Positions 724 through 19,116 of a DNA stretch of 23,669 nucleotides are shown here, piece after piece. The position numbers and the translations under genes were made by a program. The stretch lies in IMG/VR virus record IMGVR_UViG_3300031784_000201, positions 1-23,669 of that record. One strand, written 5' to 3'. The notes under the pieces are model-generated. The model was not told the origin of the DNA. It saw only the letters and a program-made list of their open reading frames with translations, and ran no database searches. The first letter of the stretch is position 1. Each line of letters opens with the position of its first letter. The DNA is from a virus.

Positions 724-891
724 GTATTCGCCGTCGTCAAGTACCACGTCGTAGGTCTCAAAAACGTAGGTGAAGTCGCGCCAGGCGGTGTAGTAGTTGG
801 CGTTTTGCAGTTTTATCAGGACGTCGCCGGGTCGCCCGCCGATGGGGACGTTCTCGGCGCTATAGACAAAACTTTCTGTGCGGTGTGACAT
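721..891 (-). CDS. Small protein of unknown function between two fibre genes (56 aa)
   Basis: ATG at 891-889 overlaps the TGA of the upstream fibre gene by one base (TGATG), a typical coupling arrangement. The product (MSHRTESFVYSAENVPIGG...) is 56 residues, aromatic-rich (many Tyr, Phe and Trp), with no signal peptide or membrane segment. It ends in VVLDDGEY, close to the C-termini of the neighbouring 740-residue fibre (VVDDGTF) and the collagen-like protein (EFDDGTY). I do not recognise the family. Position and coupling suggest a fibre accessory role, such as a chaperone, adaptor or small structural subunit. It is likely real because the overlap is exact and the gap it fills is otherwise empty. 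Confidence 0.7.
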   Translation of the reverse strand: MSHRTESFVYSAENVPIGGRPGDVLIKLQNANYYTAWRDFTYVFETYDVVLDDGEY

Positions 892-3113
892 CAGAAGGTG
901 CCATCGTCAACCACACCGATTGTCATTTCACCCGTAGTGTTGTCGACCAGCACTTCAGCAGATTCAAGTACCACGCCGATTTGAGATGTGGTGGCGATTT
1001 GCGTGCGGCCCCACAGCAAGACAAGTGCATCTCGGACGTCCGTCACACCGGTCATGTCCGGGGTGAAGTAAGTACCGTCCGACAAAATGTCGTAGTCGTT
1101 GAAGGTGCCAGTAGCACCAGAGACAACAGCGATCTTGGTCCAGTTGGCTGTGGTGCCCTGGCTGAGAACCCAGTCGCCGACTGCCAGTGATGCAATAGGA
1201 GCCGGCGTGGTGCCGGTGCCGGCCACCGTTGTAATCAGATAAATACCGTTGTTTTGTGGGTTGGGTGCGCCAAGCGCTTGGCCCACAGTCAAACCAGCTT
1301 CGGTGCCGTACTGGTTGAGGGTGGCAACGGTGTTGGTACTGGCGTTGTAAGTGCCACCGAAACGGATGTTGAGCTGGGTGGGGCTGCCGTAACCGACAAG
1401 CAGCCAGTAGCCGTTGGGAGTTGGGCTGACTGTGCCGACCCAGATGTAGGCCGAGCGGTCGGATGGGTTGATCCACCACTGACCGGCAAATTCCGGCGTT
1501 GGAGCACTTTCGCTGACTTGGGCGATGCCGTAATCAGCCAGCTGGGCAGCAGTAACGCTGTTGTTAGCAAGGAACGCACTGCTGAAAGTACCAGTCGTGA
1601 TCTTGCTGGCATCCAGGTTGGGGATATCGGTTGAGGCCAGGACGTCGCCGGTGACGATGTGACCCTGGGCGTCAATCGAAACCTTGGTGTAAATACCAGC
1701 GGTGGCGGCGTTGCTGTGGTTGAGGACGCCGCCTGCCGTTACGGTCAGACCAGTGCCAGGCTGGATTGCGCCAGTTGCACCAGCAGTGGCGACTGGTAGA
1801 TCCGCGGGGACAAGAGCGCGGAAGGTGGGGGTGGCGTTGGAGCCGGTGGTGGGGCCAGCAAAAACGCGGTTGGCGGCTTGGGTGTCAAGGCCGGTCGTGA
1901 TTGTGGCAACGCCGGCTGCACTGACAGATGCACTAAACGTGAGGGGCGTGGAGTCCGAAAAGACAAAGCTCTGGACGCCGGCTTGTTGGATCCAGGCCGT
2001 GCCATCCCAGGCGTAGGCAAGTCCGGTATTGGTGTTGAACCACTGCTGACCTTGGAACGCGCCGCTGCCGCTGGGCGTGTTGCCGGAGATGATTGTGCTG
2101 GAATCGGCGGCAAGTTTGGCGCCAGTTACAGCTGCTGCGCCGATTTTTGCGGTGGTGACGGCGCCGCTCGCGATCTTGGTGGCGGTTACGGCGTCGGTGG
2201 CAATCGTGGCGGCAAAACTGCCGGTGCCCGAGCCGGTTACATCACCGGTCAGCGTGATGGTCTGGTCGCCGGTGTTCGTGCCGCTGGTGGTGCCGGAGTG
2301 GGTGCCGCTGAACGTGCCAGATTGAGTAGCGAGGGTGCCGAGACCCAGCGTGGTGCGTTGGGCGGCAGCATCGGCATCATCTAGGAGTGCCCGGCCGGCA
2401 GCGGTGCAGGCGATTTCTTCGACGTTGCCGGCGCCAGCAGTGGAACGCCCCAGCAGTACGTCGGTGCCGCTGGTGTTCTGGATCTTGGCGTAGGTAACGG
2501 CGTCGTTAGCCAGCCCGGCGGTTTCGACTGCGCCGGCAGCGATGGCGTCTGCGGTGACCGAGCCCGTGGCGAGTTGGGCTGCGGTAACGGCGTCGCTGGC
2601 AAGCTTGGCGGTGGTTACTGCGTCGTTGGCAAGAGCGGCGGTGCCCAGGCCGGCGGAATCAATTTTTGCGGTGGTGACTGCGTTTGCGGCGAGTTTTGCG
2701 GTGGTGACCGCCGAATCTTCAATGCCAGCCGTAGGCGCAATGACCTGTTGGTAGGCGCTGCCGTCGTAGACCTTCAGGTATTTGCTGGTGCTGTTGACGT
2801 AACCACGACCTTCAAAGTTGTCCGAGGCGGGCTCAACACTGTCGTAGGCAATGCTCGAATCGTTGGCGAGCTTGGCCGCAGTTACAGCGTCATCGGCAAG
2901 CGCAGTGGTGCCAAGTTTGGTGGCACTGGCCTGATCGATTTTGGAAATATCAATACTGGAAGCGTCCGCAAGGGTTGCTCCAGCCTCAAACAGATCTTTG
3001 GCGGTGACTTTTTTGGTCTCGCTTGCCGAAATGTCGACGATAGGCAGTACGTCGGTGGCCGCGACGTTGGCCTCGGGAAGCTGGTTTAATTGTGTAATGC
3101 GTTGATCGGCCAC
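891..3113 (-). CDS. Tail fibre-like protein with decapeptide repeats (740 aa)
   Basis: GTG start at 3113-3111 (MADQRITQLNQLPEANVAAT...), TGA at 893-891. The first 45 residues (ADQRITQLNQLPEANVAATD, then a KVTAKDLF segment) match the attachment-type N-terminus I know from cyanophage fibre and structural proteins. Residues 132-211 are eight consecutive ten-residue repeats of the AVTTAKLAxD type, and three more lie at 305-334. Residues 278-304 hold the GTNTGDQTITLTGDVTGSG block common in phage fibres. The two middle stretches with QQWFNTNTGLAYAWDGTAW and QWWINPSDRSAYIWVGT resemble beta-rich modules seen in fibres. The C-terminus reads TGEMTIGVVDDGTF. It probably trimerises as an elongated fibre at the tail tip, which is inference. 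It is coupled to the 56-residue gene downstream. Confidence 0.85.
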   Translation of the reverse strand: MADQRITQLNQLPEANVAATDVLPIVDISASETKKVTAKDLFEAGATLADASSIDISKIDQASATKLGTTALADDAVTAAKLANDSSIAYDSVEPASDNFEGRGYVNSTSKYLKVYDGSAYQQVIAPTAGIEDSAVTTAKLAANAVTTAKIDSAGLGTAALANDAVTTAKLASDAVTAAQLATGSVTADAIAAGAVETAGLANDAVTYAKIQNTSGTDVLLGRSTAGAGNVEEIACTAAGRALLDDADAAAQRTTLGLGTLATQSGTFSGTHSGTTSGTNTGDQTITLTGDVTGSGTGSFAATIATDAVTATKIASGAVTTAKIGAAAVTGAKLAADSSTIISGNTPSGSGAFQGQQWFNTNTGLAYAWDGTAWIQQAGVQSFVFSDSTPLTFSASVSAAGVATITTGLDTQAANRVFAGPTTGSNATPTFRALVPADLPVATAGATGAIQPGTGLTVTAGGVLNHSNAATAGIYTKVSIDAQGHIVTGDVLASTDIPNLDASKITTGTFSSAFLANNSVTAAQLADYGIAQVSESAPTPEFAGQWWINPSDRSAYIWVGTVSPTPNGYWLLVGYGSPTQLNIRFGGTYNASTNTVATLNQYGTEAGLTVGQALGAPNPQNNGIYLITTVAGTGTTPAPIASLAVGDWVLSQGTTANWTKIAVVSGATGTFNDYDILSDGTYFTPDMTGVTDVRDALVLLWGRTQIATTSQIGVVLESAEVLVDNTTGEMTIGVVDDGTF
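2481..2720 (-). repeat. Eight in-frame 30-base repeats in fibre gene
   Basis: This encodes residues 132-211 of the 740-residue fibre as eight ten-residue units in exact register (EDSAVTTAKL, AANAVTTAKI, DSAGLGTAAL, ANDAVTTAKL, ASDAVTAAQL, ATGSVTADAI, AAGAVETAGL, ANDAVTYAKI). Three related units recur at residues 305-334. Such 30-base repeats can expand or contract by recombination and so alter fibre length. Confidence 0.85.
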
Positions 3114-3145: not shown

Positions 3146-3151
3146 AGTTTA
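3146..3151 (-). promoter_or_regulatory. -10-like element TAAACT before 740-aa fibre gene
   Basis: The minus strand reads GACTAAACTGCTAGGAG. TAAACT overlaps the stop codon of the upstream gene and sits 32 bases before the GTG start. TAGGAG follows but lies far from the start. The same hexamer precedes four other genes here. No -35 is visible. The role as promoter is inferred. Confidence 0.45.
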
Positions 3152-4021
3152 GTCCGTCACCTCGGTCATGAGGAAGTCAAGGTTTTGCTGCAGACGCAGG
3201 CGATCCGTGTCTTCCTTGAGGATGTAGCCCGATGGCTCACCAATCAGCAGTTTGATTTCGCCTGTAGTTACAAAATCAATAGCGCAGTTAATAGTTTGAT
3301 CAGGCCGCACTTCTACTCCAGTGCGTGTAATCATTGCATCAAATTCGTAATACACATCCGACGAATTTGAATACACAGCATCTTCAGTAAGTTGTAAAAA
3401 GCAACTGAACTCGCTGCCGATATCGGTGCGGTTAATTAGTTGCAGCATCAACAATGAGTTCTCCACCAGGCCGCTGTTGCTGGTGTTGAAGATGCAGTCG
3501 ATGGAGCCTGACCCGCTGATGAGACCGGCGGAATACATTTTTTTGAAGCGGTCGGACATTGTGGTGGTGTCCAGCGCTTCGCGGTCGGTGTTAAACGTGA
3601 AGCCGGTTACGTCGCCAAGAACGCGCTCCACGGAACCGTAGACGCTGACGTTGATGTCAATCGGGTTGCCGGTAAATGACTCCAGTGGGTATTCAACAGT
3701 GCGGTTGTTGTTGATGGCGTTCGAGAAGTCGTTAAAGAGGCGGATGCCGCCGATCGCGTTGATATTTGAATAAGCAACTACTTCATTCAAAGTTGCTCCA
3801 CCGCCGTCGGGCCAGGTGGATGGCGGCAAAAAGTCCAGGCCCCGTGGGTCGTCCGTAAAAATGCGGAGTTGATCTCCAGTCAGTAGGTTTTCAACGGATC
3901 CATCGAAACCGAAACGGTTGAGGATTGTGTTGACGTCGGCTGGAGATACGGAACTGGAGAAGGTGGTCGCGCTTTTGCGGCGTAGTTTGACTTTTCCGTA
4001 GTGGCCTAGGAAATAGGTCAT
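3149..4021 (-). CDS. Tail-tube-like / minor tail protein (290 aa)
   Basis: ATG at 4021-4019 overlaps the previous stop by four bases (ATGA). The N-terminal half (MTYFLGHYGKVKLRRKS..., then NLLTGDQLRIFTDDPRGLDF) is a separate domain. The C-terminal half (about residues 125-260) carries the pattern also seen in the major tail tube protein and in the 164-residue neighbour: TGFTFNTDREALDTTTMSDRFKKMY, then GSGSIDC, then MITRTGVEVRPDQTINCAIDF. From this I infer a tail-tube fold. Placed after the J-like hub and next to the fibres, it could be a tail-tip ring, a fibre-attachment ring or a distal tail component. Base composition at 3150-3480 is more AT-rich than in neighbouring genes. The family is not named with certainty. 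Confidence 0.72.
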   Translation of the reverse strand: MTYFLGHYGKVKLRRKSATTFSSSVSPADVNTILNRFGFDGSVENLLTGDQLRIFTDDPRGLDFLPPSTWPDGGGATLNEVVAYSNINAIGGIRLFNDFSNAINNNRTVEYPLESFTGNPIDINVSVYGSVERVLGDVTGFTFNTDREALDTTTMSDRFKKMYSAGLISGSGSIDCIFNTSNSGLVENSLLMLQLINRTDIGSEFSCFLQLTEDAVYSNSSDVYYEFDAMITRTGVEVRPDQTINCAIDFVTTGEIKLLIGEPSGYILKEDTDRLRLQQNLDFLMTEVTD

Positions 4022-4512
4022 GCGTCAATCAGCTCGCGGAACGCTCCATCCACGGTGAACTGGATCGCAACGGAGGTTAGTTCACCAGTACTGACCTGCA
4101 GAGAGGCGTTGGTGATGTAGGCGTTGAAGGCGATGTCGTCTTTGATGTCGGCACCGCTGCCGGCAGTTTCGCCGACGCGCAGCACCATGCCAACGCGATC
4201 GTTTTCGGTGACGCCAGCGGTGGTGGTCTTCATGACCTTGGCCAAGAACTGGTCAAACTGCGTTCCAGGTTCGGTGCCCGTGGTGCCTTCGCGGCGGTAA
4301 TACAGCAGAGTGGCGCTGCCGGTAGCGCTCGATGCGCCGGGGGTATAGCTCTTTACGGCGGTGTCGACTGTGGTGGTTTCCAGCAGTTCGAGGGTGGTCT
4401 CCAGTGACCAGTCGCGCAGTTTTAGTGCCTTTTCGGAGGCGGTGGGATTGATTTCGCCGGTGCCAGCGCTGGTTAGGTACAGAGCCCCGGTGCGTCCGGT
4501 GTAGAAGGCCAT
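4018..4512 (-). CDS. Tail-tube-like protein, short paralogue (164 aa)
   Basis: ATG at 4512-4510 (MAFYTGRTGALYLTSAG...). It shares order and motifs with the 257-residue major tail tube: an N-terminal TGALY strand, RDWSLE at 33-38 (RDWTFE in the tube), ETTTVDTAVKSYTPG...GSATLLYY at 45-72, and a C-terminal ITNASLQVSTGELTSVAIQF at 133-152 (LTSASMNVNPDDAQSVTVNF in the tube). It lacks the roughly 75-residue N-terminal insertion of that protein and so resembles a minimal tube subunit. That is read from the sequence. A second ring or tip tube role is inferred from its place after the J-like hub protein. It lies 28 bases after the J gene, with a -10-like TAAAGT in the gap. Confidence 0.75.
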   Translation of the reverse strand: MAFYTGRTGALYLTSAGTGEINPTASEKALKLRDWSLETTLELLETTTVDTAVKSYTPGASSATGSATLLYYRREGTTGTEPGTQFDQFLAKVMKTTTAGVTENDRVGMVLRVGETAGSGADIKDDIAFNAYITNASLQVSTGELTSVAIQFTVDGAFRELIDA

Positions 4513-4537
4513 TGCGGCAATCCCGTTTTCTTATGCC

Positions 4538-4543
4538 ACTTTA
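4538..4543 (-). promoter_or_regulatory. -10-like element TAAAGT before 164-aa tail gene
   Basis: The minus strand reads CCGCTAAAGTGGC. It overlaps the stop of the J-like gene and ends 25 bases before the ATG at 4512. It is a one-base variant of the recurring TAAACT element, with the same GC preceding it as at several other sites. No -35 is visible. Confidence 0.35.
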
Positions 4544-7500
4544 GCGGCGGATGGTAAACAGATTATCGCTGAAGTCGGCGATAAGGGACTGGCCGTCAGT
4601 GGTGCAGGGATAGATGGTTGCCCGAACCGTAATTTCACCTTCCTCGTCCATTTGAACTTCGCTGACGCGGAATATGCGGCGGGTTGTGGTCTCCACGCCA
4701 AGCACAAACAGGAAGTTTTCGTAGTCGGCTAGTTGGGGTGCCACGCCGTTGGTGACGGTTACGGAGTTGACGTCGATCAGGCCGCGATCACTGCGGTACA
4801 GGCGGAAGTTGTAGGTGCCTGATACCAGGTTGTTATCCAGTGGCATGTTGAGTGCTCCGCCGACGCCGACCATGCCGGTGCGGATGGCGTCCCAGCTGTT
4901 TTGGCCGATATCTACGTACACAAAAGCGCCGGGTGATATGGGATCCAGCGTGGGATAAGTTTTGAACTCAACGGCCTGGCGAACGTAACGGCGAAGATTA
5001 CAGATCAGCTTTCCAAACAAAATAGCTTGCTCGGGATTTGTTACGTACAACGACAGATCAAACGTTTGCCGGATTGCATCTACTTCAAGCGTGTCGGCAA
5101 GTTGGACTTCCAGCGATTTTTTCTTGGAGAAAACGGCGTCTGCAGGAATATCGGTGTAAATGATGGAGGCGATGATGTCCTGGACGTTGGAGCCGAAGTC
5201 CATGTACTCCTCTTTGTAGGAGTCTTCGATGATGTTGCCTTGGTTGAAGATGGCGCTTACGTTGATGGTGCGGGTGATTTGTCCGGTGTTGGGGTCGTAG
5301 GGCACTGCAGGCACCAGTGTTTCTCGGCCACCGATACGGGCAAACTCCAGCAGATTGAACGGAGCGACCTCAACCCAGAACTCGCGCCAGCTGCGGGGGC
5401 TGGCGATCACGCAGTCCATAAATAGGTTGTTGGCTTGGCAAAAACGCTTGGTTAGTGCCAGCTGGCGCAGGTCGATGGCGTTAACTTCGGCGTAATTACC
5501 GATGCCATCAGTGCTATCAAGCACGGTGTCCAAGAAAATGTCGGGCGCCAGGCTGCTTGCACCGTCAGGATCAGACGGGTAGTACACATAGCCCTCGTCC
5601 CCCCAAGCAGTCCCAAACTGATCGACGCCGCTGGTGCGGATTCTGCGGACGCGGCGGCCTTGGGTTGCAAAGACGCTGAACGAGCGCAGGTCTTGGATTG
5701 TTTTGCCCGAGTAGGCATTGAAGCCGTACAAAGCAAGGTTGTTGTACAGCTGGCTGGTTATTGCACCGCTGGCGTTTAAGGTCGTGTAATCAGAAAAAGG
5801 CTGGATGAGTTGTTCGGTAACTGCAGTAAGGGTTATTTCCGGCCCTGCGTCAAAGGAAAACTGGAGTTGCGTATCGGAGTCGTAGTTAAACAAGTCCCAC
5901 TCGTTGAGGTCTGCAGGATTGTTGTTTTGAGGCGGGAAATTTCGGTCTGTGCCAGTAAGTGCCAGTCCCGTAAATTGAATCGAAGGCACCGTGGTGCTTC
6001 CGCTACGCAATCTGTAAGTTTCGAGCGTGTAGGTGACAGCGCTTCCAGTGTTTTCAAGGTAGAAATAGTTTGCGCCTACTTGGCGTTCGGCAAGTGGATC
6101 GCTAATAGGCTCCAGCTCAAATGCCCATTGTGTGGCTGCTGCGGGGTCGGTTAGGCCGCTGTTGAATTTGATGTAAACGTAGTTTTCGTTGTCGGCGGCG
6201 CGGCTGATTGCAAATATGCCGGGAATGATTGAATACTGCGTTTGTCCAACTTCCTTGTAACGCAGTTTGAACAGCGATACACGCGGCTTGATGCCGTTAT
6301 CGCTGGCTGGATAACCGCTGCGCCTACCGCTGCCGTATTCCATCTGACGGCCGCTGATGCGCTTGTAGACAACGGCTTTGAGCGCCAGGTCAACGATGTG
6401 GCACTGGGAAACTGTTTCGTAGCTGGCTGTTGCGATGCGTACTAGGGCTTTGGTATAAAAAACATCGTCAACGGCGCCAGACAAATTAACAACAATGCTG
6501 TCCAGATATTCGTACCGACGCAGCAGAGATATTTCTTCTGTGGTTAGTAACCTACTTCTGACATAACCATTAAACGACTGTGCTGTGTATGTAACAGTGC
6601 GTTCACAGTACTGGTTAGGGTACCCATAATCTTGAAGTCTCCAGCCTGGTGGACAACTTAACCAAGAGCCTCTGCCCCAGCCTTGGCGAGAGGGTGTGCT
6701 TCTTTCGTTCCGCGTAGCTTGATACGAGCTATAAGAAGCGACACGTATTTCACCAGAATCTGCAAGTTGTGTGGCAGTAGTAATATCAGGTCTTTGATCT
6801 TCATTAAGTAGAGCTAGAGCACTAGGGCGTAGGCGGTCGTACTCAGCTCTATCTTCGTCGGATACTGCTGGTGTGGTTGATGCGGGATCAAGGCTCGTGT
6901 AAGCAGCGGATGGTGCTCGGCCAGCTGAAATGCACTTGAGAGTTACTGCAGCATCGACGTTTTCAATGTCGGGATTTACCAGCTGTGTGACTTTGAATAA
7001 TGCTGTGCCAAGTTTGAAGATGCTGGCAATATCAAACGTGCTGACAATACTGCGGCGAGCATCTTCCGCTTCTTGGCCTGGGGCATCGGATGCTCCAGAT
7101 GTTTTGGTGACGCGGACTGTTAGTTCGGTATTTACAGGAATAGAAACGCCCGAGCCGGTTACCCATGGCGTCATTTGTGCATACACGCCAAGGTTGACGC
7201 TTTCTTTATCGCCAGTAGCGTTACGCAGATACAGCAACACGTTCAGCGGTACAACGCCGTAGATGCCGCAAGTATTTGATGTTGAGGGTGAATATGCCTG
7301 GCTAAAACCGTCGACACGAACGTTGGTTGATGCCGTCTGGATGCGGTAGGGGTTATCGGTTAGTTGGCCGTAACTCGTTGGGTCCGATGTTGACTGGTTG
7401 TTAAGTTCATTGTTCTGCGCGAGAAAACCGGTGGCCCCAGGATTGAAATACATCCAGAGGTTGTTGGTGATCAGGTCGCGGATAGGGGTTTGGCCGAAGG

Positions 7501-8023
7501 CGCTTTTTTCTGGGTCGATCGCGGTGATGGCGCCGCCGGAAAGAAGCAGCAGCATCTGGATGAACTGACTGGATCCATAGCTGCGGACGGCGGACCACAG
7601 CAGTGAACTGGTAACGCGAACGCCGCCGTTAGGGTTTGCGCCAGTGCCCGTGCCGCGGTTGGCGTAAACGAGGTTTACAGGGTCGCCGTAAGTGGCCAGC
7701 TCTTGAACGCTGTTAAAACCAAAACGCGGAGAAAAGCGTTCGTCGCGTGTTTGTTGTTGGCCGCCACCTTCCTGTTTTTGTATGCCAGGTAGTTCAGGAA
7801 TTTGCGGTTGCGGCGTTAATATCGCAGAAACAACTTGGGCAATAATGCCGACGATAGTGAGGACCAGAGCGACAACACCGACATCATTTCTGACATCTAA
7901 ATTCGTCCCTAATTTAATGTCGCTGTACTTTGCTTGAAGTGCAACAAACTCCAGGTATTCATCCTTGCTGATGTCAAGGATTTCAATTAGTTCGTGCTCG
8001 AATGGAAGGAGTTTTCGTGTCAT
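4541..8023 (-). CDS. Central tail tip / host specificity protein, gpJ-like with gpI-like N-terminus (1160 aa)
   Basis: ATG at 8023-8021 overlaps the K-like stop by four bases. Size and position (after L- and K-like genes) match the lambda gpJ family, which forms the trimeric hub at the tail tip and directs adsorption. The N-terminus is unusual: after about 45 polar residues come a hydrophobic segment (about 48-69, VGVVALVLTIVGIIAQVVSA), a LTPQPQIPELPG stretch, then SVQELATYGDPVNLVYANRG and a hydrophobic QFIQMLLLLSGG. This order resembles the C-terminal half of lambda gpI (membrane segment, APK-type linker, N..A..G...PV.YG), so an I-J fusion is inferred. Residues 457-473 carry a two-cysteine CPPGW...YC insertion in an AT-richer stretch. 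The C-terminal third (GGRETLVPAVPYDPNTG, then SLYVTNPEQAILFGKLICNLRRYV) is typical hub sequence. Confidence 0.82.
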   Translation of the reverse strand: MTRKLLPFEHELIEILDISKDEYLEFVALQAKYSDIKLGTNLDVRNDVGVVALVLTIVGIIAQVVSAILTPQPQIPELPGIQKQEGGGQQQTRDERFSPRFGFNSVQELATYGDPVNLVYANRGTGTGANPNGGVRVTSSLLWSAVRSYGSSQFIQMLLLLSGGAITAIDPEKSAFGQTPIRDLITNNLWMYFNPGATGFLAQNNELNNQSTSDPTSYGQLTDNPYRIQTASTNVRVDGFSQAYSPSTSNTCGIYGVVPLNVLLYLRNATGDKESVNLGVYAQMTPWVTGSGVSIPVNTELTVRVTKTSGASDAPGQEAEDARRSIVSTFDIASIFKLGTALFKVTQLVNPDIENVDAAVTLKCISAGRAPSAAYTSLDPASTTPAVSDEDRAEYDRLRPSALALLNEDQRPDITTATQLADSGEIRVASYSSYQATRNERSTPSRQGWGRGSWLSCPPGWRLQDYGYPNQYCERTVTYTAQSFNGYVRSRLLTTEEISLLRRYEYLDSIVVNLSGAVDDVFYTKALVRIATASYETVSQCHIVDLALKAVVYKRISGRQMEYGSGRRSGYPASDNGIKPRVSLFKLRYKEVGQTQYSIIPGIFAISRAADNENYVYIKFNSGLTDPAAATQWAFELEPISDPLAERQVGANYFYLENTGSAVTYTLETYRLRSGSTTVPSIQFTGLALTGTDRNFPPQNNNPADLNEWDLFNYDSDTQLQFSFDAGPEITLTAVTEQLIQPFSDYTTLNASGAITSQLYNNLALYGFNAYSGKTIQDLRSFSVFATQGRRVRRIRTSGVDQFGTAWGDEGYVYYPSDPDGASSLAPDIFLDTVLDSTDGIGNYAEVNAIDLRQLALTKRFCQANNLFMDCVIASPRSWREFWVEVAPFNLLEFARIGGRETLVPAVPYDPNTGQITRTINVSAIFNQGNIIEDSYKEEYMDFGSNVQDIIASIIYTDIPADAVFSKKKSLEVQLADTLEVDAIRQTFDLSLYVTNPEQAILFGKLICNLRRYVRQAVEFKTYPTLDPISPGAFVYVDIGQNSWDAIRTGMVGVGGALNMPLDNNLVSGTYNFRLYRSDRGLIDVNSVTVTNGVAPQLADYENFLFVLGVETTTRRIFRVSEVQMDEEGEITVRATIYPCTTDGQSLIADFSDNLFTIRR

Positions 8024-8397
8024 CGTTCCATCCAGAAGTAGTGGCCCATGCCTTTAGGGATAGGGCTGCGAACTACATTTTTACTTGGGGCGATAAATAG
8101 GAGGCCGTCGTCCAAAACGGTGGCTAGCGCCAGGCCGACGTTGGCTGGCAACAGAGCCACTGCGCCTGGCGTGGGCTCGGTGAGGCGTTTGCCGTTTTCG
8201 TTCAGCCAGCGAATAATCAGCCGGTAACGGAATGTGGTCTCGGTGTAATTCTGGTATACCCACTCAAATTGAGAACGATAATCGCCAAAGCCGAGACGCT
8301 CGTGGACTTCACACGCCAGCTGAAAGCAGTCGGTTTTGCCGGATCCATCGCGGGGTGAGTGGCCCCAGCCATATTGCAGACCGATGAGATCGTTCAC
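8020..8397 (-). CDS. Tail tip NlpC/P60-like protein, gpK type, probably catalytically altered (125 aa)
   Basis: GTG start at 8397-8395, overlapping the L-like stop by four bases (GTGA). The first 35 residues, with GLQYGWGHSPRDGSGKTDCFQLACEV around Cys24, match the start of the NlpC/P60 cysteine peptidase core (Y.WG....DC..L). PGAVALLPANVGLALATVLDDGLLFIAPS (78-106) aligns with the usual PGD.V.F....HVGI....G.FIH segment, but Asn86 stands where the catalytic His is expected. In lambda, gpK combines a Mov34/JAMM and an NlpC/P60 domain and acts in tail tip assembly; only the second is present here. It may be an inactive structural version or use a different second residue. It is coupled to the J-like gene by ATGA. 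Confidence 0.75.
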   Translation of the reverse strand: MNDLIGLQYGWGHSPRDGSGKTDCFQLACEVHERLGFGDYRSQFEWVYQNYTETTFRYRLIIRWLNENGKRLTEPTPGAVALLPANVGLALATVLDDGLLFIAPSKNVVRSPIPKGMGHYFWMER

Positions 8398-8870
8398 TGG
8401 AGGGATACGTTGGCGCTAACGGGGAGGGGGCCGACGAGCTGGCGTGTGATGACGCGGGCCGGGAAGTTGGAAATTACGCTGTCGATGGCTGAGCGGTAGC
8501 GCAACTCAATAGTAGTCTCGCTGATGCTGGAGCCAATGCCAACCAAGTATTCGACTTGGGTGGCGCCGTTGACCGCGATCTCGTTGGTGCTGGTTAGCCA
8601 TACCGTTGAGAGCACCAGGCGTCCCAGGCGGTTGCCGTTGCCGGCATCCAGCAGGCGGATCGCAAAATCGACGTTGGGAAACAGCACCTGCACGATGTTG
8701 TTGTCGCCGGTGTTGTTTGAAACTGTCCCTTCGGCGCGGAAGGGGGCGAACTCGTAGCGCTGGTTTAGGTAGGTGTAACTTTCGTTTACAAAGTAGTTTT
8801 GATAGCGGTGTGTGGTGCCATCAGTTGTAGTTAGGTTGAAAAATTGGGCGATGCGGACGTCGACAGCCAT
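8394..8870 (-). CDS. Minor tail protein, gpL-like tail tip component (158 aa)
   Basis: ATG at 8870-8868 overlaps the preceding stop by one base (TAATG). The N-terminal pattern FFNLTTTDGTTHRYQNYFVNESYTYLNQRYEFAPF with a following VSNNTGDNNIVQVLFPN is the type found in tail tip proteins between M and K in lambda-like modules (gpL / DUF1833-like). The middle (RLGRLVLSTVWLTS) and the ISETTIELRYRSAID segment fit a beta-rich tail tip domain. Lambda gpL carries an iron-sulphur cluster through C-terminal cysteines, but this protein has no cysteine, so that feature is absent. The assignment rests on gene order and on the motif pattern. Confidence 0.68.
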   Translation of the reverse strand: MAVDVRIAQFFNLTTTDGTTHRYQNYFVNESYTYLNQRYEFAPFRAEGTVSNNTGDNNIVQVLFPNVDFAIRLLDAGNGNRLGRLVLSTVWLTSTNEIAVNGATQVEYLVGIGSSISETTIELRYRSAIDSVISNFPARVITRQLVGPLPVSANVSLQ

Positions 8871-9286
8871 TACGTGTCATCCGTAGTCGTGTTGCGGATC
8901 TCTCCAAGCAGCGTGATGGTCACGGTGTAGATGCCGGGGCGCACGGACTGGACTTCGGGGGGTTTTTCGTATTCCCAGCGCAGGTTGCCGCGGTCGGCTG
9001 TGTAGCTGGTGACTTCGGCAGTCAGTGCGGAACTCATGCCGGCCGTGACGTTATCGGATAGGCGGAAGCGGCTGTTGCTGGCAGTTTGAGAATGATAATG
9101 ATTCAAGAAGGCGTCGACGGTTGCGTCGGGGATATTTTCGTATTGCAGTTCCAGTTGGGCGCCGTAAGGGCTGTTGCCGAAGGTGCGGCGGACGGTGACT
9201 CCAGACAGTGTGCGGAATGTTTTTTGCGGGTATACACCAGGGGTATACCGACGTGCGGTAGGTGTAAAGGAGGGAAAGTTAGCCAT
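8870..9286 (-). CDS. Minor tail protein, gpM-like (138 aa)
   Basis: ATG at 9286-9284, overlapping the tape measure stop by one base (TAATG). The product (MANFPSFTPTARRYTPGVYPQKTFRTLSGVTVRRTFGNSPYGAQLELQYENIP, cut here) has the short beta-rich character of the tail protein that follows the tape measure in lambda-type modules. gpM-type proteins cap the tape measure and join it to the tail tip. The FGNSPYGAQLELQYENI segment and the C-terminal VRPGIYTVTITLLGEI look like paired tail-tip strands. Function is inferred mainly from its place between the tape measure and the L-like gene. Confidence 0.68.
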   Translation of the reverse strand: MANFPSFTPTARRYTPGVYPQKTFRTLSGVTVRRTFGNSPYGAQLELQYENIPDATVDAFLNHYHSQTASNSRFRLSDNVTAGMSSALTAEVTSYTADRGNLRWEYEKPPEVQSVRPGIYTVTITLLGEIRNTTTDDT

Positions 9287-12200
9287 TAGAAGCCGACCCT
9301 TTTACGTGTGGAGGGTGACTGCTGGAGTTTGTCCAGTGTCATGGACATGCCGCGTTGGGCGCCGTCGCGGGCGGCTTGACGGCGGGTTTGAGCCATCGCA
9401 GCCTCCAGTTGATCCCGGCTGACGTATTCCACCCCGTTGATCGTGCTGGTCTCAAACGTCATGTTAAGGACAGGGCCGCCGCTGGCACCAGGGGCTGCGC
9501 CCATCGAGGCACGCAGGTCGCTGTTGGACATGACGCCGCCACTGGTACCAGGCACAAACAACTCGGGGCCGCGCTCGCCAACGAGGTAAGGGGTACCAGC
9601 GCGGGTTGGGCCGCCTCCTGCCAAACCGCCGCCATATTGGGCTGCGCCAAGGTTGAAGTTAGCTACAGAATCTGTAGCGCCTCCGCCGCCTCCGCCGAAG
9701 CTACCGCCACCCAATGCTTTGAGGACGGTTTGAAGAATGATCATCGTTAGCTGTTTGGCGATGATCTCGGATGCCATCTGAATAAAGGCATCGCCGACAG
9801 ATTGGAAGAAGCTGGCGAGGGCTTCTTGGGTGGTCATCGTGCCAGAGATGATGCCCTGGAACGCTTGGCTGAAGGCCGTGCCAATGCTGTCTGCCACCGA
9901 TACGGCAACGGTGCCGATGTTGGTCAGGTTATTTAGTTCGTCTTGCAGGGCGCCAATTCGTTTTTGGATGATTTCGCCGGCGGTTTCCGGGGCAGCAAGC
10001 TGTTTCTTGAGCGCCTCAATTTGCGGAAGCGCGTTTGCGTCAACTTGCCCGCCTTTTTTCAATGCCTCCATTTCATAAGCTATCCGCAAGCTATTGCGCT
10101 CTGCTTCTGTAGTTGCATTTTTCAGATTAAGCTCGTACTGCAGAGACTTAATGGTGTCTTCGGTAAACTCTTTACGCTCTGCGTAAATAGCGTTGAGCCG
10201 TATTTCATTTTCAATTTGTTGTTTTTTAACTGCGGCACGCCCTTCGCGTGTAATCGCAATCTGGGCTTCTAGGTTTTTCTCGTTTGCTAGTTCTTTAGCG
10301 TACTGGTACTGAATTGCCAGTATCCTTTCTTCACCTTGTAAACGAGCTACAAGAATAGGATCACGTTTGAGTTCCGCATCCGCAATTTTTTGCTGTAATC
10401 CGGACTGAATACGCAGTATCGAGGCTTCTGCATTGCGATCACGTACCACTTGAGCAACGCGCTGGCGTTCGCGCTCAGCATCCCTGGCAGCTCTATCTGC
10501 ACCTTTGTCTGGACGAAGAGATTCCACGCCTTGCGTGGCGGAACGTAGCTGCCTGAGTCCCTGTAAAGCGTTAGTAAATATCGAAGATGGCGGATTATTT
10601 CTACGGTTTTCTAATACGCGTTGTTGACCAAAAATAGCCGGATCAATAATTTGTCCTTGACCGCCGCCCATAAAGCTGGCAGCAGTGGCAAGACCGGCAA
10701 CAATACGATCTTGGATCGTTATTTGTTTTAGCCCCTCTTCTGTTTGTTTTATCCTTGCGTCAAGTAGAGCTTTTTGGAACGCAAGTTCCACGGCAGCCGA
10801 GTCGCCCAGTTTTATTTGATTTATTAGCTGAGTAGCTCTTTCAATTCCAATCTTCTCATACGCTCCAAGGATTACTTGGGCTAAATCAGCTTGATCTTTT
10901 GCTGCGGCTAGACCTCTGAGAATAGAAGCATCATCGCCGTACAAGAAAGCCAGCGATTTAGTTACGTTAGCGTCGCCAAAACCTGCAAAACTTTGCAGCA
11001 ATTTTATAGCTTCATCGTTGGCTATACCGAAAGTTTTAGCGAGATTACTTACATCTTTACTGGTTACTTTTGCGGCATTTCCGGTGCCGGAAACTTGGGT
11101 ATTTAAAACGGCTAGTTGTTTATTAAACGTATCAGCTTTTTCGGCAGCATCACCAAGAGCTGTACCAACGATGGACAGAGCAAAGCCGAAGCCTCCTCCT
11201 ACAAGACCGCCAGCTAAGCCGCCGACAGCACCGCCAGCTGCAGCTGCCGGACCTTGCCCAAACAGCAGCGGAAAACCGCCACCAATAAGTGCGCTACTTA
11301 TTGCACCGCCAGCTCTATTTGATAATCCACCTCCACGACCTATTTCTGCTGCAGTAGGAGTGGTTCCTGCTTCATAAGCCGCTCTTTCACGTAGTTTTGC
11401 GGCTCTTCTTTCTCGTGAGGCTTCAAGGCGATCTATTTCTCTTAGGCGAGTAACACTTTCCAGGCGTTCGTTATTTAGCCGATCTTCCGCAGTCTCTAAT
11501 TGTTTAATACCTCGTGCGGAAGCATTAAGCATTGCAGCATCGGGCAATGCTTTTACTTGCTGTAACTTTGCAGCTTGGCCGGCGATTCCAGCGTACAGAG
11601 CATCTATTTGACTGAGTGGGCGTACCTGTTCCTGCAAGGCTTGCGCGAAGCGCAAGGCCATTGCGGCTTCGTCTTCTGTGCGTGCGCCCCCAAGACGTTC
11701 TACTGCTCCTGTTATTCGGCGGCGAGCACCACCGCCCATTGCCGGTGCTCCGGGGGCAGCGGGAGCCAGCAAAAGCTGGGCCGCAGGCGAATTAGCCAGT
11801 GCCCGTGCCGTCCCAACGGCTACAGCGGCCATTCGGTTAAGTTCTCCTCTAGCTTGAAGTTGTTTATTAAGAGCTTCAGCACTTTTCTGTTCTAAACGTA
11901 AAAGACCGGCTTCTAGTTGTGCCTGTTCTTCTGTAGCGCGGATAATCCGTTTAATACGTTCTTCGACAGGAGATTTTTGACCTACAAGAGCGCCTACAGG
12001 CGATGCCGGTCCCGGACCAATAGGGCCTCCATATTGCGTTGTTTCGCGGATACCAGCTCGCGCCAAAGCAGCTCTACGCTCTTCATCAGCTACTTGTTTT
12101 AATAGCTGAGCACGTTCGCGCAGTCCGGCATTTAACTCGTTCGTAGCTATTACATACTTTCTAGCTGCGAGAGTAGCTTCTTCCGTATTTAATGCGGCTT

Positions 12201-12396
12201 TATTAAAAGCTGCAGCAGCATCTGCAACTACAGTTTTTAAATTACTTATGCTTCTTACAATACCACCTGAGCCGATATTTTCTAGATAATTGTTTAATCC
12301 GTCAACTAATTTAGATGTCGCAGAAATTTCACTTTGCAGGCGCTTGAGTTCTTGTGCGCCACGAACCGCAATTTCAATATCGGCTCTGTAGGCCAC
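9286..12396 (-). CDS. Tape measure protein (1036 aa)
   Basis: GTG start at 12396-12394 (MAYRADIEIAVRGAQELKRL). This is the longest helix-rich protein of the tail cluster after the J-like gene. Residues 1-350 and 590-800 are mostly charged coiled-coil sequence. A Gly/Ala-rich hydrophobic stretch around 365-425 (GGAISSALIGGGFPLLFGQG, GGAVGGLAGGLVGGGFGFAL) fits the membrane-interacting part of tape measures. Near residue 940 is GERGPELFVPGTSGGV, a hallmark near the C-terminus of many tape measure proteins. The protein sets tail length and travels ahead of the DNA. At the commonly used 0.15 nm per residue the tail would be about 155 nm. The first three quarters of the gene are AT-rich and the end is GC-rich, which suggests recombination. 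No lytic domain was seen. Confidence 0.93.
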   Translation of the reverse strand: MAYRADIEIAVRGAQELKRLQSEISATSKLVDGLNNYLENIGSGGIVRSISNLKTVVADAAAAFNKAALNTEEATLAARKYVIATNELNAGLRERAQLLKQVADEERRAALARAGIRETTQYGGPIGPGPASPVGALVGQKSPVEERIKRIIRATEEQAQLEAGLLRLEQKSAEALNKQLQARGELNRMAAVAVGTARALANSPAAQLLLAPAAPGAPAMGGGARRRITGAVERLGGARTEDEAAMALRFAQALQEQVRPLSQIDALYAGIAGQAAKLQQVKALPDAAMLNASARGIKQLETAEDRLNNERLESVTRLREIDRLEASRERRAAKLRERAAYEAGTTPTAAEIGRGGGLSNRAGGAISSALIGGGFPLLFGQGPAAAAGGAVGGLAGGLVGGGFGFALSIVGTALGDAAEKADTFNKQLAVLNTQVSGTGNAAKVTSKDVSNLAKTFGIANDEAIKLLQSFAGFGDANVTKSLAFLYGDDASILRGLAAAKDQADLAQVILGAYEKIGIERATQLINQIKLGDSAAVELAFQKALLDARIKQTEEGLKQITIQDRIVAGLATAASFMGGGQGQIIDPAIFGQQRVLENRRNNPPSSIFTNALQGLRQLRSATQGVESLRPDKGADRAARDAERERQRVAQVVRDRNAEASILRIQSGLQQKIADAELKRDPILVARLQGEERILAIQYQYAKELANEKNLEAQIAITREGRAAVKKQQIENEIRLNAIYAERKEFTEDTIKSLQYELNLKNATTEAERNSLRIAYEMEALKKGGQVDANALPQIEALKKQLAAPETAGEIIQKRIGALQDELNNLTNIGTVAVSVADSIGTAFSQAFQGIISGTMTTQEALASFFQSVGDAFIQMASEIIAKQLTMIILQTVLKALGGGSFGGGGGGATDSVANFNLGAAQYGGGLAGGGPTRAGTPYLVGERGPELFVPGTSGGVMSNSDLRASMGAAPGASGGPVLNMTFETSTINGVEYVSRDQLEAAMAQTRRQAARDGAQRGMSMTLDKLQQSPSTRKRVGF

Positions 12397-12422
12397 GGCG
12401 CCGCGTCACATTCTGGTACTTC

Positions 12423-12428
12423 AGTTTA
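12423..12428 (-). promoter_or_regulatory. -10-like element TAAACT before tape measure gene
   Basis: The minus strand reads GGCGTAAACTGAAG, 26 bases before the GTG start and 6 bases past the T-run of a terminator. The terminator-then-element order suggests a new transcript begins here. No -35 is visible, so the promoter role is inferred. Confidence 0.45.
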
Positions 12429-12434
12429 CGCCGT

Positions 12435-12460
12435 AAAAAGCCGCCGGGGTTAGCGGCGGC
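12435..12460 (-). terminator. Intrinsic terminator after tail chaperone
   Basis: On the minus strand GCCGCCG (12460-12454), a seven-base loop CTAACCC, CGGCGGC (12446-12440), then five T (12439-12435). The stem is a perfect 7-bp GC stem followed by a T-run, the standard intrinsic terminator form. It overlaps the stop codon of the frameshift extension (12452-12450), so it acts just after the chaperone and before the tape measure. Confidence 0.8.
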
Positions 12461-12641
12461 GTCGGGCTTTGTCGATCTCCTTTTGCTGGTCCTCGTTGAG
12501 GATGCTGAAGTAGGCGCTCCAGCCGATCAGCTCTTCGGCGGTCATGGTGGTGCTGACTTCGGAGAGGGTTTTGCCTAGCTCTTTGGCGACTCCGAATTGG
12601 AGCATGAGCCAGTTGTCTTTCCGAAGTTCGGCACTCAGGAT
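12450..12641 (-). CDS. Tail assembly chaperone, -1 frame extension (gpT-like part of G-T fusion)
   Basis: In the -1 frame after the slippery site, 63 codons read ILSAELRKDNWLMLQFGVAK... to EIDKARRRR and end at TAA 12452-12450. Joined to the first 114 residues of the zero-frame product this gives a 177-residue fusion. The frame contains the helical segment LRKDNWLMLQFGVAKELGKT and TAEELIGWSAYFSIL, a pattern common in phage tail chaperone C-terminal parts. There is no good independent start. In lambda the long form gpGT recruits tail tube subunits to the tape measure. The same role is inferred from the identical arrangement between tail tube and tape measure. Confidence 0.85.
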   Translation of the reverse strand: MLSAELRKDNWLMLQFGVAKELGKTLSEVSTTMTAEELIGWSAYFSILNEDQQKEIDKARRRR

Positions 12642-12982
12642 TTTGGGTCGATGGGCTCCGCGTCGTCGGTCAGGATCGCCAGCATCAGGGCTTGCAGGTC
12701 CTTGTCCTTGACTTCGTTCTTAAGCACGTCGATTTCGCCGGCGTTGAACAGGCGGGAGCCGGTATCGTCGAGGGCTTTGGCGATCAGCAGTTGGAGGGCG
12801 AAGGCGTTGGCGTCGTCGGACTTGGCTTGTTTTTGGGCGCGTTCGCGCTCGGCCATCGTCAGCGGTGCCACCCACATTTCAAATTTGGTGCCGTCGGAGA
12901 GTTCGACAATCTTTTTGACGGGCTCCAGGTTGGCGGCCTTGCGGAGGCGGTCAATGGCACGCAGTGAGCTGGGGGCAGGCAT
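12635..12982 (-). CDS. Tail assembly chaperone, short form (gpG-like, 115 aa)
   Basis: ATG at 12982-12980 (MPAPSSLRAIDRLRKAANLEPVKK, cut here), TGA at 12637-12635. The product is helical and charged, with VELSDGTKFEMWVAPLTMAERERA, a core typical of tail assembly chaperones placed directly upstream of tape measure genes. The C-terminus PIDPKS overlaps the CCCAAAA slippery sequence, so some ribosomes will continue into the -1 frame. The gene stands alone between two terminators (13023-13052 and 12435-12460), with a -10-like TACACT 23 bases before its start. It may thus form its own transcription unit, which would let its level be set apart from the tail tube and tape measure. Confidence 0.88.
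   Translation of the reverse strand: MPAPSSLRAIDRLRKAANLEPVKKIVELSDGTKFEMWVAPLTMAERERAQKQAKSDDANAFALQLLIAKALDDTGSRLFNAGEIDVLKNEVKDKDLQALMLAILTDDAEPIDPKS
12641..12647 (-). other. Programmed -1 ribosomal frameshift site CCCAAAA
   Basis: The minus strand reads GA C CCA AAA TCC TGA in the zero frame. C CCA AAA is a perfect X XXY YYZ heptamer. After a -1 slip the codons become CCC AAA ATC CTG, which enter the 63-codon extension. The zero-frame stop lies one codon past the slip. This is the classic phage G/GT chaperone arrangement. No downstream stimulatory structure was worked out. Confidence 0.87.
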
Positions 12983-13005
12983 AGAAGTCCTGATGGTCTC
13001 GGATT

Positions 13006-13011
13006 AGTGTA
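13006..13011 (-). promoter_or_regulatory. -10-like element TACACT before chaperone gene
   Basis: The minus strand reads CCGCTACACTAATCC, 23 bases before the ATG at 12982 and a short distance past the T-run of the terminator at 13023-13052. It is a one-base variant of the recurring TAAACT element. No -35 is visible. Confidence 0.38.
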
Positions 13012-13022
13012 GCGGAGTAGAG

Positions 13023-13052
13023 ACAAAAAACCCCGGCGGTGAGGCCGGGGTT
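13023..13052 (-). terminator. Intrinsic terminator after tail tube gene
   Basis: On the minus strand AACCCCGGC (13052-13044), a six-base loop CTCACC, GCCGGGGTT (13037-13029), then a run of T. The 9-bp stem has no mismatch and lies 26 bases past the tail tube stop. Reading the plus strand there is no T-run, so it works in the minus direction only. Confidence 0.88.
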
Positions 13053-13077
13053 AGGGTTTCGTCCGTTTTGCAGACTA

Positions 13078-13851
13078 TCAGGCGGAAGTGCTGAAGTCGA
13101 AGGTCGGGGTAGCAGCCGGGCGGAAGTTCACCGTCACGGACTGGGCGTCGTCAGGGTTGACGTTCATGCTGGCCGAGGTCAGCGTGGCGTCAAAGCTGAT
13201 CGAGCGGCTGAGGGTGTCGCTCACGTTGCCGCCGCTGTACACGCGGTCGATGTACAGCTTGAAGGCAGCACCGGTTTGCTGGCGCTGGAGCACGTCCTCG
13301 ATCATCCGGTTGGACATCGAAGCGTTCTCGTTGGTCATGTAGACCGTAGCAGTGCCAGTGCCGTCGCCGAAGCCGGCGATGTAGCTGCGGAAGGGGACGT
13401 ACTGACCTTGGGTTTGACCGATGGTGGTGACGTCGATTTCGGCACGGTTGATTTCGAAGGTCCAGTCGCGGACTTGGCCCACGGCCACGAAATCGGCGTA
13501 GGCGACCTGGAACTCGTTGGGGGCAACGGCGGTGCCGTCGTCGGTCAGGTCAACAGCGGTGCCACCAGCGGTCGTCGACACCTGCAGCGCACCAGTGGCG
13601 GCGGTGTAGGCGATCACGTAGTAAGTGGTGACGGCAGACAGCGGGGCGGGCAGGGTGCCCGTGCCAGCGCCGCCGGTTTGGCTGTTAATCACGCTGAATT
13701 TCACGGGGTCGCCCACCTTGAGGTTCAGGTAGGTCTCGACCGTGATGGTGTCGGTACCGGTATTCACGCCAGACTCACCGAACGAGCCGGTGGTGCCAGC
13801 GGGCTTGTAGTAAAGAGCGCCGGACGTGCCGGACAGAACGGTGGTGGCCAT
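13078..13851 (-). CDS. Major tail tube protein with inserted surface domain (257 aa)
   Basis: ATG at 13851-13849 (MATTVLSGTSGALYYKPAG), TGA at 13080-13078. Tube-type motifs are GALYY near the N-terminus, GQVRDWTFEINRAEIDVTTIG (125-145), GDGTGTATVYMTNE (162-175), and the C-terminal strand LTSASMNVNPDDAQSVTVNF (224-243). Position between tail terminator and chaperone/tape measure is the canonical place of the major tail protein. Residues about 32-107 form an insertion (TITVETYLNLKVGDPVKFSV, LPAPLSAVTTYYVIAY, GGTAVDLTDDG) of a beta domain type found in other phage tail proteins; it likely projects from the tube surface. The 164-residue paralogue lacks it. It is preceded by a 74-base leader with two palindromes and followed by a strong terminator. 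Confidence 0.9.
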   Translation of the reverse strand: MATTVLSGTSGALYYKPAGTTGSFGESGVNTGTDTITVETYLNLKVGDPVKFSVINSQTGGAGTGTLPAPLSAVTTYYVIAYTAATGALQVSTTAGGTAVDLTDDGTAVAPNEFQVAYADFVAVGQVRDWTFEINRAEIDVTTIGQTQGQYVPFRSYIAGFGDGTGTATVYMTNENASMSNRMIEDVLQRQQTGAAFKLYIDRVYSGGNVSDTLSRSISFDATLTSASMNVNPDDAQSVTVNFRPAATPTFDFSTSA

Positions 13852-13925: not shown

Positions 13926-14357
13926 CTACGACAGCACGGTAGCGACGTAGGAGGTGTCAATTCGCCCCACGAAATGGGGCGCATCTTCTGTAGCTGAAAA
14001 TGTAGGGCCGTTGATTTCACCAACCTTGAAATAAACGCCGGTGGTGCCCTTTGTTGAGTTGTTGAGGGTTTCCAGCACGTTGACTGCGGTGGTTAGCAGG
14101 GTTTGGTTGCGGGCGGGGCCGCGGCCTTTTTCAGTGAAAATGCGAATGACTATTGCTCCACGGGCGTTGTCGACGCTGGAAGTCAAGGTGGGTTCGTTGG
14201 TGATGCCGAAGGTGACGTTGACGCGGACGTATTCGGTGGTCGTGTTGGGTGGAACGGCAGTGATGTTGTCGAAGTAGACAGGGACCGCTGGCACAAGGGC
14301 GCCAAACGCTGTCAGCAGCGGGTTTTCGACGGCGGCTCGGATGGCTTGGTAGTTCAT
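13926..14357 (-). CDS. Tail terminator-like protein (143 aa)
   Basis: ATG at 14357-14355 overlaps the previous stop by four bases (ATGA). The sequence starts MNYQAIRAAVENPLLTAFGALVPAVPVYFDN, cut here, followed by TTTEYVRVNVTFG and GAIVIRIFTEKGRG. This is the pattern of the phage tail terminator family annotated as DUF4128 / gpU-like. The terminator forms the hexameric ring that stops tube growth and joins the tail to the head. Position between the tail completion gene and the tube gene agrees. The C-terminal IDTSYVATVLS is typical of a final strand. It is followed by the palindromic leader of the tube gene. Confidence 0.82.
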   Translation of the reverse strand: MNYQAIRAAVENPLLTAFGALVPAVPVYFDNITAVPPNTTTEYVRVNVTFGITNEPTLTSSVDNARGAIVIRIFTEKGRGPARNQTLLTTAVNVLETLNNSTKGTTGVYFKVGEINGPTFSATEDAPHFVGRIDTSYVATVLS

Positions 14358-18243: not shown

Positions 18244-19116
18244 TTAATACGTGCCATCGTCAAATTCGGCGGTGGACGACACTGAGACTTGCCCGTCTAC
18301 AACAGTGATGTTGGTGCCGGCGGTGACGGTTGCGTTGGTGCCTGGGTCGCCGCGGGGGATGGTGAAATTCAACGTGGCGGCTGTAGACGTGCCGCTGTTG
18401 GTGACGATGACGCCGGTGCCGGGGCTGCCGGTGTTGACGGCTCCAATCGTGATGGTGGCGGCAGTGCCCGGGTCGCCTTGGGGACCTTGGGCGCCAGTGG
18501 CTCCTGTGGGGCCGGCAGGACCTTGGGGACCGGTATCGCCCTGTTCGCCTTGGGGTCCTTCAGGACCAGTCGCGCCAGTTGGACCGGCGGGGCCGGTGTC
18601 GCCTTGTGGTCCGGCTGGTCCTTGAGGTCCGGTGGCGCCTTGGGGACCGGTTGCACCAGTAGGTCCTTGGGGGCCGGTGGCGCCTGTTGCACCAGTTGCT
18701 CCAGTTGGGCCGGTGGCGCCAACGTCGCCGCGGGGGATGGTGAAATTGAAGATTGCGGCACTTTCGGTGCCGGTGTTGGTGACGCTGGCGCTAGTGCCGG
18801 GGGCGCCAGTTGTTGTGGCACCAACGGTGATGGTGGCGCCGCTACCGCCTCCGCCGCCAGGCAATGCTCCGCCGATTGTCAGACCCGTCACTTGCGTGCG
18901 GGTGACAAGTTCCATGCCGTCGCCCCAGCCGGCTTCGGTTTTGGGGCCGTACAGCGTTAGTGGGTCGGTTTGGATGTACCAGTCGCCGAGTTTTCCGGTG
19001 GAGGCGGAAGGGGTGTCGGTGCCGGATTTGATGCTGTTGAGGCGGCTGACCTTTTTGGTGAGGCGCACCAGGGCGGTGACTTGAGCAAGGGTGAGTTGCT
19101 CGTTTTTGGTGGCCAT
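18244..19116 (-). CDS. Collagen-like phage structural protein (290 aa)
   Basis: ATG at 19116-19114 overlaps the portal stop by one base (TAATG). The N-terminus ([22 protein letters not shown]) is a helical anchor, then [20 protein letters not shown]. Residues 130-219 are 30 uninterrupted Gly-X-Y triplets of the GAT/GPQ/GPT type, which form a collagen-like triple helix. The triplets are flanked by two copies of a beta segment, at 94-131 and 220-257, each ending FNFTIPRGD. The C-terminus is [18 protein letters not shown]. Being between portal and scaffold, it is more likely a head fibre or decoration protein than a tail fibre. This placement is seen, the function inferred. No cysteine is present to lock the trimer. 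Confidence 0.83.
18346..18747 (-). repeat. Duplicated segment flanking the collagen repeat
   Basis: The two copies of the FNFTIPRGD-ending beta segment share a 24-base identical DNA stretch at 18346-18369 and 18724-18747. DNA identity at this level, with the surrounding protein segments only partly alike, suggests a duplication with gene conversion or selection on the DNA. The Gly-X-Y array lies between the copies. Confidence 0.75.
18460..18729 (-). repeat. Collagen-type Gly-X-Y array (30 triplets)
   Basis: This encodes residues 130-219 as [12 protein letters not shown] and so on to GDP GTA, with glycine at every third position and no break. Codons are near-repetitive, so length may vary among relatives by slippage or recombination. 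Confidence 0.9.

Follow-up and report, generated by a model that had tools for sequence, protein, structure and literature searches.

Extra rings of tail-tube fold at the tail tip and tube proteins bearing decorations are both already known from phages. The tube protein of lambda, gpV, has an outward-facing Ig domain at its C-terminus. In T4, gp54 and gp48 are extra tube-fold rings between the tube and the baseplate that start the tube and sheath of a contractile tail; to our knowledge, neither anchors fibres. In T5, p140 is a paralogue of the tail tube protein that lacks the decoration domain, and the side fibres are held by a collar that sits around its ring (PMC10038345). p140 is 9% identical to pb6, both proteins are trimeric and pseudo-hexameric, the p132 collar is its client, and p140 sits above Dit and the hub, not beyond them (PMC10038345).

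The window, by which we mean the whole 23.7-kb virus record that was analyzed, is occupied by a single long structural operon on the minus strand. Its order is terminase, portal, scaffold, major capsid protein, connectors, tail terminator, P1, chaperone, tape measure, three small tip proteins, hub, P2, P3, and fibre, with several head genes named from size and position alone. A collagen-like Gly-X-Y protein lies between the portal and scaffold genes (18244-19116). The tail genes begin with the tail terminator (143 amino acids [aa]; 13926..14357; PF13554, phrog_179) and P1 (257 aa; 13078..13851), followed by a tail assembly chaperone (115 aa; 12635..12982; phrog_20784 and the tail assembly chaperone family phrog_344) and the tape measure (1036 aa; 9286..12396), which was identified by size and position. 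The tip proteins are a minor tail protein (138 aa; 8870..9286; phrog_15525), a protein matching phrog_25799 (158 aa; 8394..8870), and a protein named by its lambda K position only (125 aa; 8020..8397), for which family searches gave no match. A J-like hub (1160 aa; 4541..8023; phrog_27845 tail protein, 2e-8) stands directly upstream of P2 (164 aa; 4018..4512), and the hubs of sister phages also match phrog_31, central tail fibre J. The end of the P2 gene overlaps the start of P3 (290 aa; 3149..4021) by 4 bases, and the tail fibre gene (740 aa; 891..3113; phrog_892 tail fibre, 7e-18) starts 36 bases past P3. All of these tail genes are on the minus strand.

Over its full length, P1 shares 69.7% identity with a protein of the cyanosiphovirus KBS-S-2A that is encoded between the tail terminator and the tape measure, and this counterpart matches the PHROG major tail protein families phrog_158 and phrog_1407. 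Judged by its homology to known major tail proteins and by its position between the tail terminator and the chaperone and tape measure, P1 is the major tail tube protein. On the strength of the same 69.7% identity, the window phage is most likely a cyanosiphovirus, and its hosts are probably aquatic cyanobacteria. When genome contigs were searched with P1, no relative came up, and hence no host link was obtained.

An earlier note on this DNA had proposed that P1, P2, and P3 share an ordered set of tail-tube motifs. The three ORFs were all present on the minus strand at the positions given above, and every motif block was found in P1, P2, and P3, respectively, in the order proposed: RDWTFE, RDWSLE, and TGFTFN; then DVTTIG, ETTTVD, and LDTTTM; then a glycine turn, GTGTATV, TGSATLL, and GSGSIDC; and finally a C-terminal strand pair, LTSASMNV...VTVNF, ITNASLQV...VAIQF, and ITRTGVEV...CAIDF. 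The tube relationship drawn from these blocks is supported by profiles and by a tree and, for P2 and P3, by predicted folds. The genes also lie as described, with P2 and P3 beyond the J-like hub and beside the fibre, not beside the tube.

A single-sequence phmmer search with the window tube retrieved members of the P2 family at E = 1.2e-10 and members of the P3 family at E = 1.5e-7, and the family HMMs cross-matched at 1e-6 to 1e-11. The P1 HMM matched 131 of 133 P2 and 127 of 129 P3 members, and the P3 HMM matched 108 of 109 P1 and 131 of 133 P2 members; the P2 HMM matched 103 of 109 P1 members but just 83 of 129 P3 members. Profile-profile comparison likewise related the three families far above control pairs. 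For the pure families, hhalign probabilities were 94.5% (P1-P2), 95.2% (P1-P3), and 88.8% (P2-P3), and broader alignments gave 99.0%, 96.3%, and 97.9% for the P1/P2/P3 pairs; in control comparisons with nine further virion families of the same phage (27 pairs), the probability was at most 2.4%. Because the HMMs cross-match and the profile pairs reach 89 to 99% against ≤2.4% for the controls, we regard P2 and P3 as genuinely homologous to P1, the major tail tube, far beyond chance.

Curated tail-tube families in Pfam and NCBIfam gave no match above cut-off for P1, P2, or P3, and the own matches of P2 and P3 to a PHROG major tail protein family (phrog_10528) were weak (3.4e-3 and 0.047). Pfam matches to AP205 coat, PM2 spike, and coatomer were weak and below cut-offs and were dismissed. 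When the window P2 and P3 and a distant P3 were used as tblastn queries against 50,697 phage records, there was no match at E ≤ 1, and therefore none of these records holds a recognizable window-type P2 or P3. A distant P2, used as a query against the same records, matched only tail proteins of other phages, most of them annotated as major tail protein.

The AlphaFold model of P2, built from 47 sequences, has tail-tube topology with two long strand pairs and a helix (mean pLDDT, 69.6). Against the PDB it gave 47 matches at E ≤ 1e-3, and all were tail tubes, tube-like baseplate, neck, or cap proteins, or Hcp, including 80alpha (3e-6) and lambda gpV (4.6e-6). A second structural comparison gave Z scores of up to 9.1 across 138 residues; middling Z scores are common with this tool, so the uniformity of the match list outweighs the Z value. 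The P2 profile also reached the solved tail tube protein of roseophage R4C (8GTB) by sequence alone (E = 8.8e-4, the sole match below 0.4). Together with the major tail proteins of alphaproteobacterial phages (phi3LM21, CRP, and RcCronus), this protein is closest to P2 by sequence and has the same single-domain fold, but these are the main tubes of their own phages and are encoded before the tape measure. The model and the profile make a strong case that P2 belongs to the phage tail-tube-fold superfamily.

For P3, the case for the same fold is moderate because of the mean pLDDT of its model (69.8). This model gave Foldseek E values of only 0.02 to 0.1, with probabilities of 0.97 to 0.99 to the gpV, R4C, and monocin tubes, and in the VIA comparison the top matches were Hcp and the R4C and monocin tubes (Z = 8.5 to R4C across 110 residues). 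The earlier note had read the C-terminal half of P3 as tube-like; the tube fold stands, but the division into halves does not, as the first strand (residues ∼5 to 14) is also part of the tube fold. According to the model, P3 has the complete tube fold, interrupted after strand 1 by an inserted domain. This insert of ∼110 residues (∼15 to 125) occupies the same site as an insert in P1 (residues ∼20 to 118). The by-eye reading that the two inserts are the same was rejected, as hhalign found no sequence relation between them (0.7%), and only P3 inserts from different subgroups were related to one another. The domain inserted in P1 is shared (hhalign, 97%) with a 194-aa protein (phrog_1084) encoded downstream of the fibre in other contigs (L080:14567-15151, L189:14538-15122, L210:15153, L226:13817, and L356:17634). 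The C-terminal tail of P3 (residues ∼262 to 290) was modelled with low confidence. It is rich in acidic residues and leucine in the window (3149-3236; LKEDTDRLRLQQNLDFLMTEVTD) and takes the form LLQETGDPIVLEQGGGYLLLEDSDV in group-2 phages, and a role as a docking peptide is conceivable.

In a tree of the tube core, P3 forms one clade (support, 99/95), the window-type and group-2 P2 proteins form another (96/89), and P1 is separate, with weak support at the deepest branching. The label P2 on a few truncated P1 proteins and on S-H1-type tubes in this tree is a fault of length-based labelling. Because P1, P2, and P3 separate, P2 and P3 are old paralogues, not recent copies. P2 lay directly upstream of P3 in all 116 distinct P3 genes that had enough upstream sequence, and the pair was retained even where tip modules differed and hubs had diverged. 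Where the ORF downstream of P3 was complete on its contig, it was a fibre starting right after P3, with ∼55 N-terminal residues conserved per clade and a length of 627 to >1100 residues. The phrog_15525 minor tail gene follows the tape measure in the window (8870-9286); in group-2 phages it follows the hub and precedes P2 or a spike gene (L210:9211-9573 and L226:5224-5595), a relocation that indicates a rearrangement of the tip module between the window and group-2 phages.

In six sister-phage contigs from six different metagenomes (L224, L226, L230, L354, L355, and L356), a second P2-type domain forms the N-terminus of an 885-aa beta-helix tailspike (for instance, L226:5598-8255 and L356:10001-12658). 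The fusion is complete in L224, L226, L230, and L356 and runs off the contig edge in L354 and L355. Its gene follows the phrog_15525 gene and is itself followed by free P2 and P3 where the contig is long enough. Residues 1 to 145 are a P2-type tube domain (HMM E value, ∼1e-17), which independently of the P2 HMM also matches PHROG major tail protein (1.1e-6 and 4.5e-8). The rest of the chain is a pectate-lyase-like right-handed beta-helix tailspike with PF12708 and PF13229 above cut-off and matches to PHROG tail spike families; in the sister phages, therefore, the tube domain stands in the place of a tailspike virion-anchor domain, N-terminal and in the same chain as the spike. The spike anchors nest within group-2 P2 and are 55 to 57% identical to free P2 in the two contigs compared, and we therefore interpret the anchor as a derived duplication of P2 that was then fused. 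L356 differs from L226 by ∼13 to 17% over the anchor and spike body and yet retains the fusion, so the fusion is not an assembly artefact.

Spike residues 216 to 884 are 64.5% identical to the tailspike of the T7-like Synechococcus podophage S-SRP01 (MW015080.1, 39418-42120; L357:17419-20121), where the body follows an N-terminal T7 tail-fibre domain, PF03906. As in T7-type anchors, a homologous spike body is thus mounted through an N-terminal domain, and the difference is that this domain is T7-like in the podophage and of tube fold in the siphophages. Since the S-SRP01 body sits on PF03906, the P2 domain takes the place of the virion anchor in the siphophage spike, and one receptor-binding body is carried by the T7-type anchor in a short-tailed phage and by the tube-fold domain in a long-tailed one. 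This is direct comparative evidence that host-recognition proteins can be anchored to the virion by a P2-type domain, and it supports reuse of the tube fold as an appendage mount. In the literature searched, we came across no tailspike described as having a tube-fold domain for its N-terminal anchor, which does not prove that there is none. Lambda gpV resembles the fusion in having a tube core with an extra outward domain at the C-terminus, the same end as the spike, but gpV makes up the tube proper, and what it carries is a small decoration instead of a receptor-binding spike. The fusions are limited to one sub-lineage.

In JBD30, a loop and a hairpin of the tube protein mediate the contacts from disc to disc (PMC11445458). 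In both P2 and the spike domain, the corresponding region is among the best conserved: it is identical at 24 of 24 positions between two diverged spike anchors and at 71% between their free P2 proteins, consistent with stacking contacts having been kept.

The fibre N-terminus in the window (MADxRIxQL...SETxKxTAxxL; gene at 891-3113) is also present on a KBS-S-2A fibre (L206:3324-4535), which is encoded directly after the hub. The HMMs found no P2 or P3 in the stretches searched of KBS-S-2A, S-2L, S-LBS1, and Mic1. With a similar fibre N-terminus and no P2 or P3 in its searched stretches, KBS-S-2A shows that a window-type fibre does not, as far as these genes tell, need P2 and P3 in general. 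For the same reason, we place less weight on P2 and P3 attaching the neighbouring fibre than on the ability of P2-type domains to anchor spikes.

We propose, with a probability of about 0.6, that P2 and P3 are ancient tail-tube paralogues that left the tube and became tip components mounting host-recognition appendages. P2, which lacks an outer decoration domain, would form a specialized, tube-compatible hexameric ring, as its fold and conserved loop suggest. This ring, alone or stacked on a P3 ring, would lie at or just above the hub and keep tube-like stacking to the tail, and P3 would form a second, decorated ring or be a partner of P2. The outer face of the ring and the C-termini would provide the mount, and its client would be the downstream fibre in the window phage and the covalently attached beta-helix spike in the sister phages. 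In favour of this proposal we counted the homology, the fold, the pairing in 116 of 116 cases, the spike fusions, the anchor swap with S-SRP01, the kept loop and hairpin, and the precedent of T5 p140; against it we counted the KBS-S-2A fibre, the confinement of the fusions to one sub-lineage, mean pLDDT values near 70, and the symmetry mismatch implied by a trimeric spike on a hexameric ring. The earlier note had suggested that tube-fold rings were reused for a distal tail or fibre-attachment platform. The appendage part of that suggestion is supported by the six spike fusions and the S-SRP01 body, but gene order beyond the hub is no proof of a distal place, as T5 p140 illustrates, and gene position should not be equated with physical position in the virion.

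Like p140, P2 and P3 are paralogues of their own phage's tail tube and are encoded in the tip module. The absence of a decoration domain applies to P2 only, as P3 carries an insert unrelated to that of P1. Moreover, in place of two fused tube domains in a trimeric protein, P2 and P3 have one tube domain each in the models. The window phage has two such paralogues, both encoded after the hub, and the client of the P2-type domain in sister phages is a covalent spike rather than a p132 collar. T4 gp54 and gp48, for their part, have no sequence-level relation to P2 and P3.

It is important to note that the fold alone says nothing about the function of P2 and P3. They might instead be transition or initiator rings, in the role of T4 gp48 and gp54 or of the T5 p140 ring, that adapt the tube to the tip and prime its polymerization and hold no appendage directly. 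The P2 fold is indeed shared with tube initiators and baseplate tube proteins (T4 [5iv5], E217, Pa193, and AFP), and p140 and gp54 are precedents for extra tube-like rings. However, the P2-spike fusion presents a P2-type domain as an appendage anchor, and the P2 and P3 genes travel with fibre genes, not with Dit or the tape measure, so that we consider a purely initiating role unlikely. We give still less credence to the idea that P2 and P3 are compact beta-sandwich adaptors that attach to the outside of the hub, at the foot of trimeric fibres or spikes, and no longer form tube-like rings. In favour of such adaptors, the spike fused to the P2-type domain is expected to be trimeric and P3 has a large inserted domain and a flexible tail; however, P2 retains the complete fold, and the hairpin and loop that stack rings are among the best-kept parts of P2 and the spike domain.

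Relatives of Synechococcus phage S-H1 (L208:12533-13374) and Prochlorococcus phage MED4-117 (L209:611-1030 and 38473-38805), among others including L294 and L343, carry two tandem tail-tube ORFs before the tape measure. Such arrangements lend some plausibility to P2 and P3 being minor components interspersed in the tube or located at its head-proximal end, which may be the situation in phages with two tandem tube genes. In this lineage, however, P2 and P3 are always paired beyond the hub and beside the fibre, in an order kept across diverged genomes, and we judge a place within the tube or at its head-proximal end to be very improbable.

Returning to P2 and P3 as mounts for host-recognition appendages, we tentatively entertain a broader version, to which we give somewhat less than even odds: a mount for receptor-binding proteins used throughout this lineage of cyanophage-like siphophages, in which an undecorated P2 ring and its P3 partner would serve for fibre docking, spikes would be grafted covalently at the C-terminus of a tube subunit, and spike bodies would move between podophages and siphophages by a swap of anchor domains.

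How siphophage tips gain or change receptor-binding proteins is still being resolved one phage at a time. A paralogue of the tube subunit that also serves as an anchor domain, as seen in the natural spike fusions, would offer a direct route from conduit to attachment device, and the presence of one spike body on two unrelated anchors suggests that anchor exchange lets host-recognition modules pass between tail types. Tube-paralogue anchors of this kind, visible from sequence alone, may provide a way to recognize appendage mounts in uncultured phages. What was a segment of the pipe seems, in these phages, to have become a bracket on which the parts that recognize the host are mounted.
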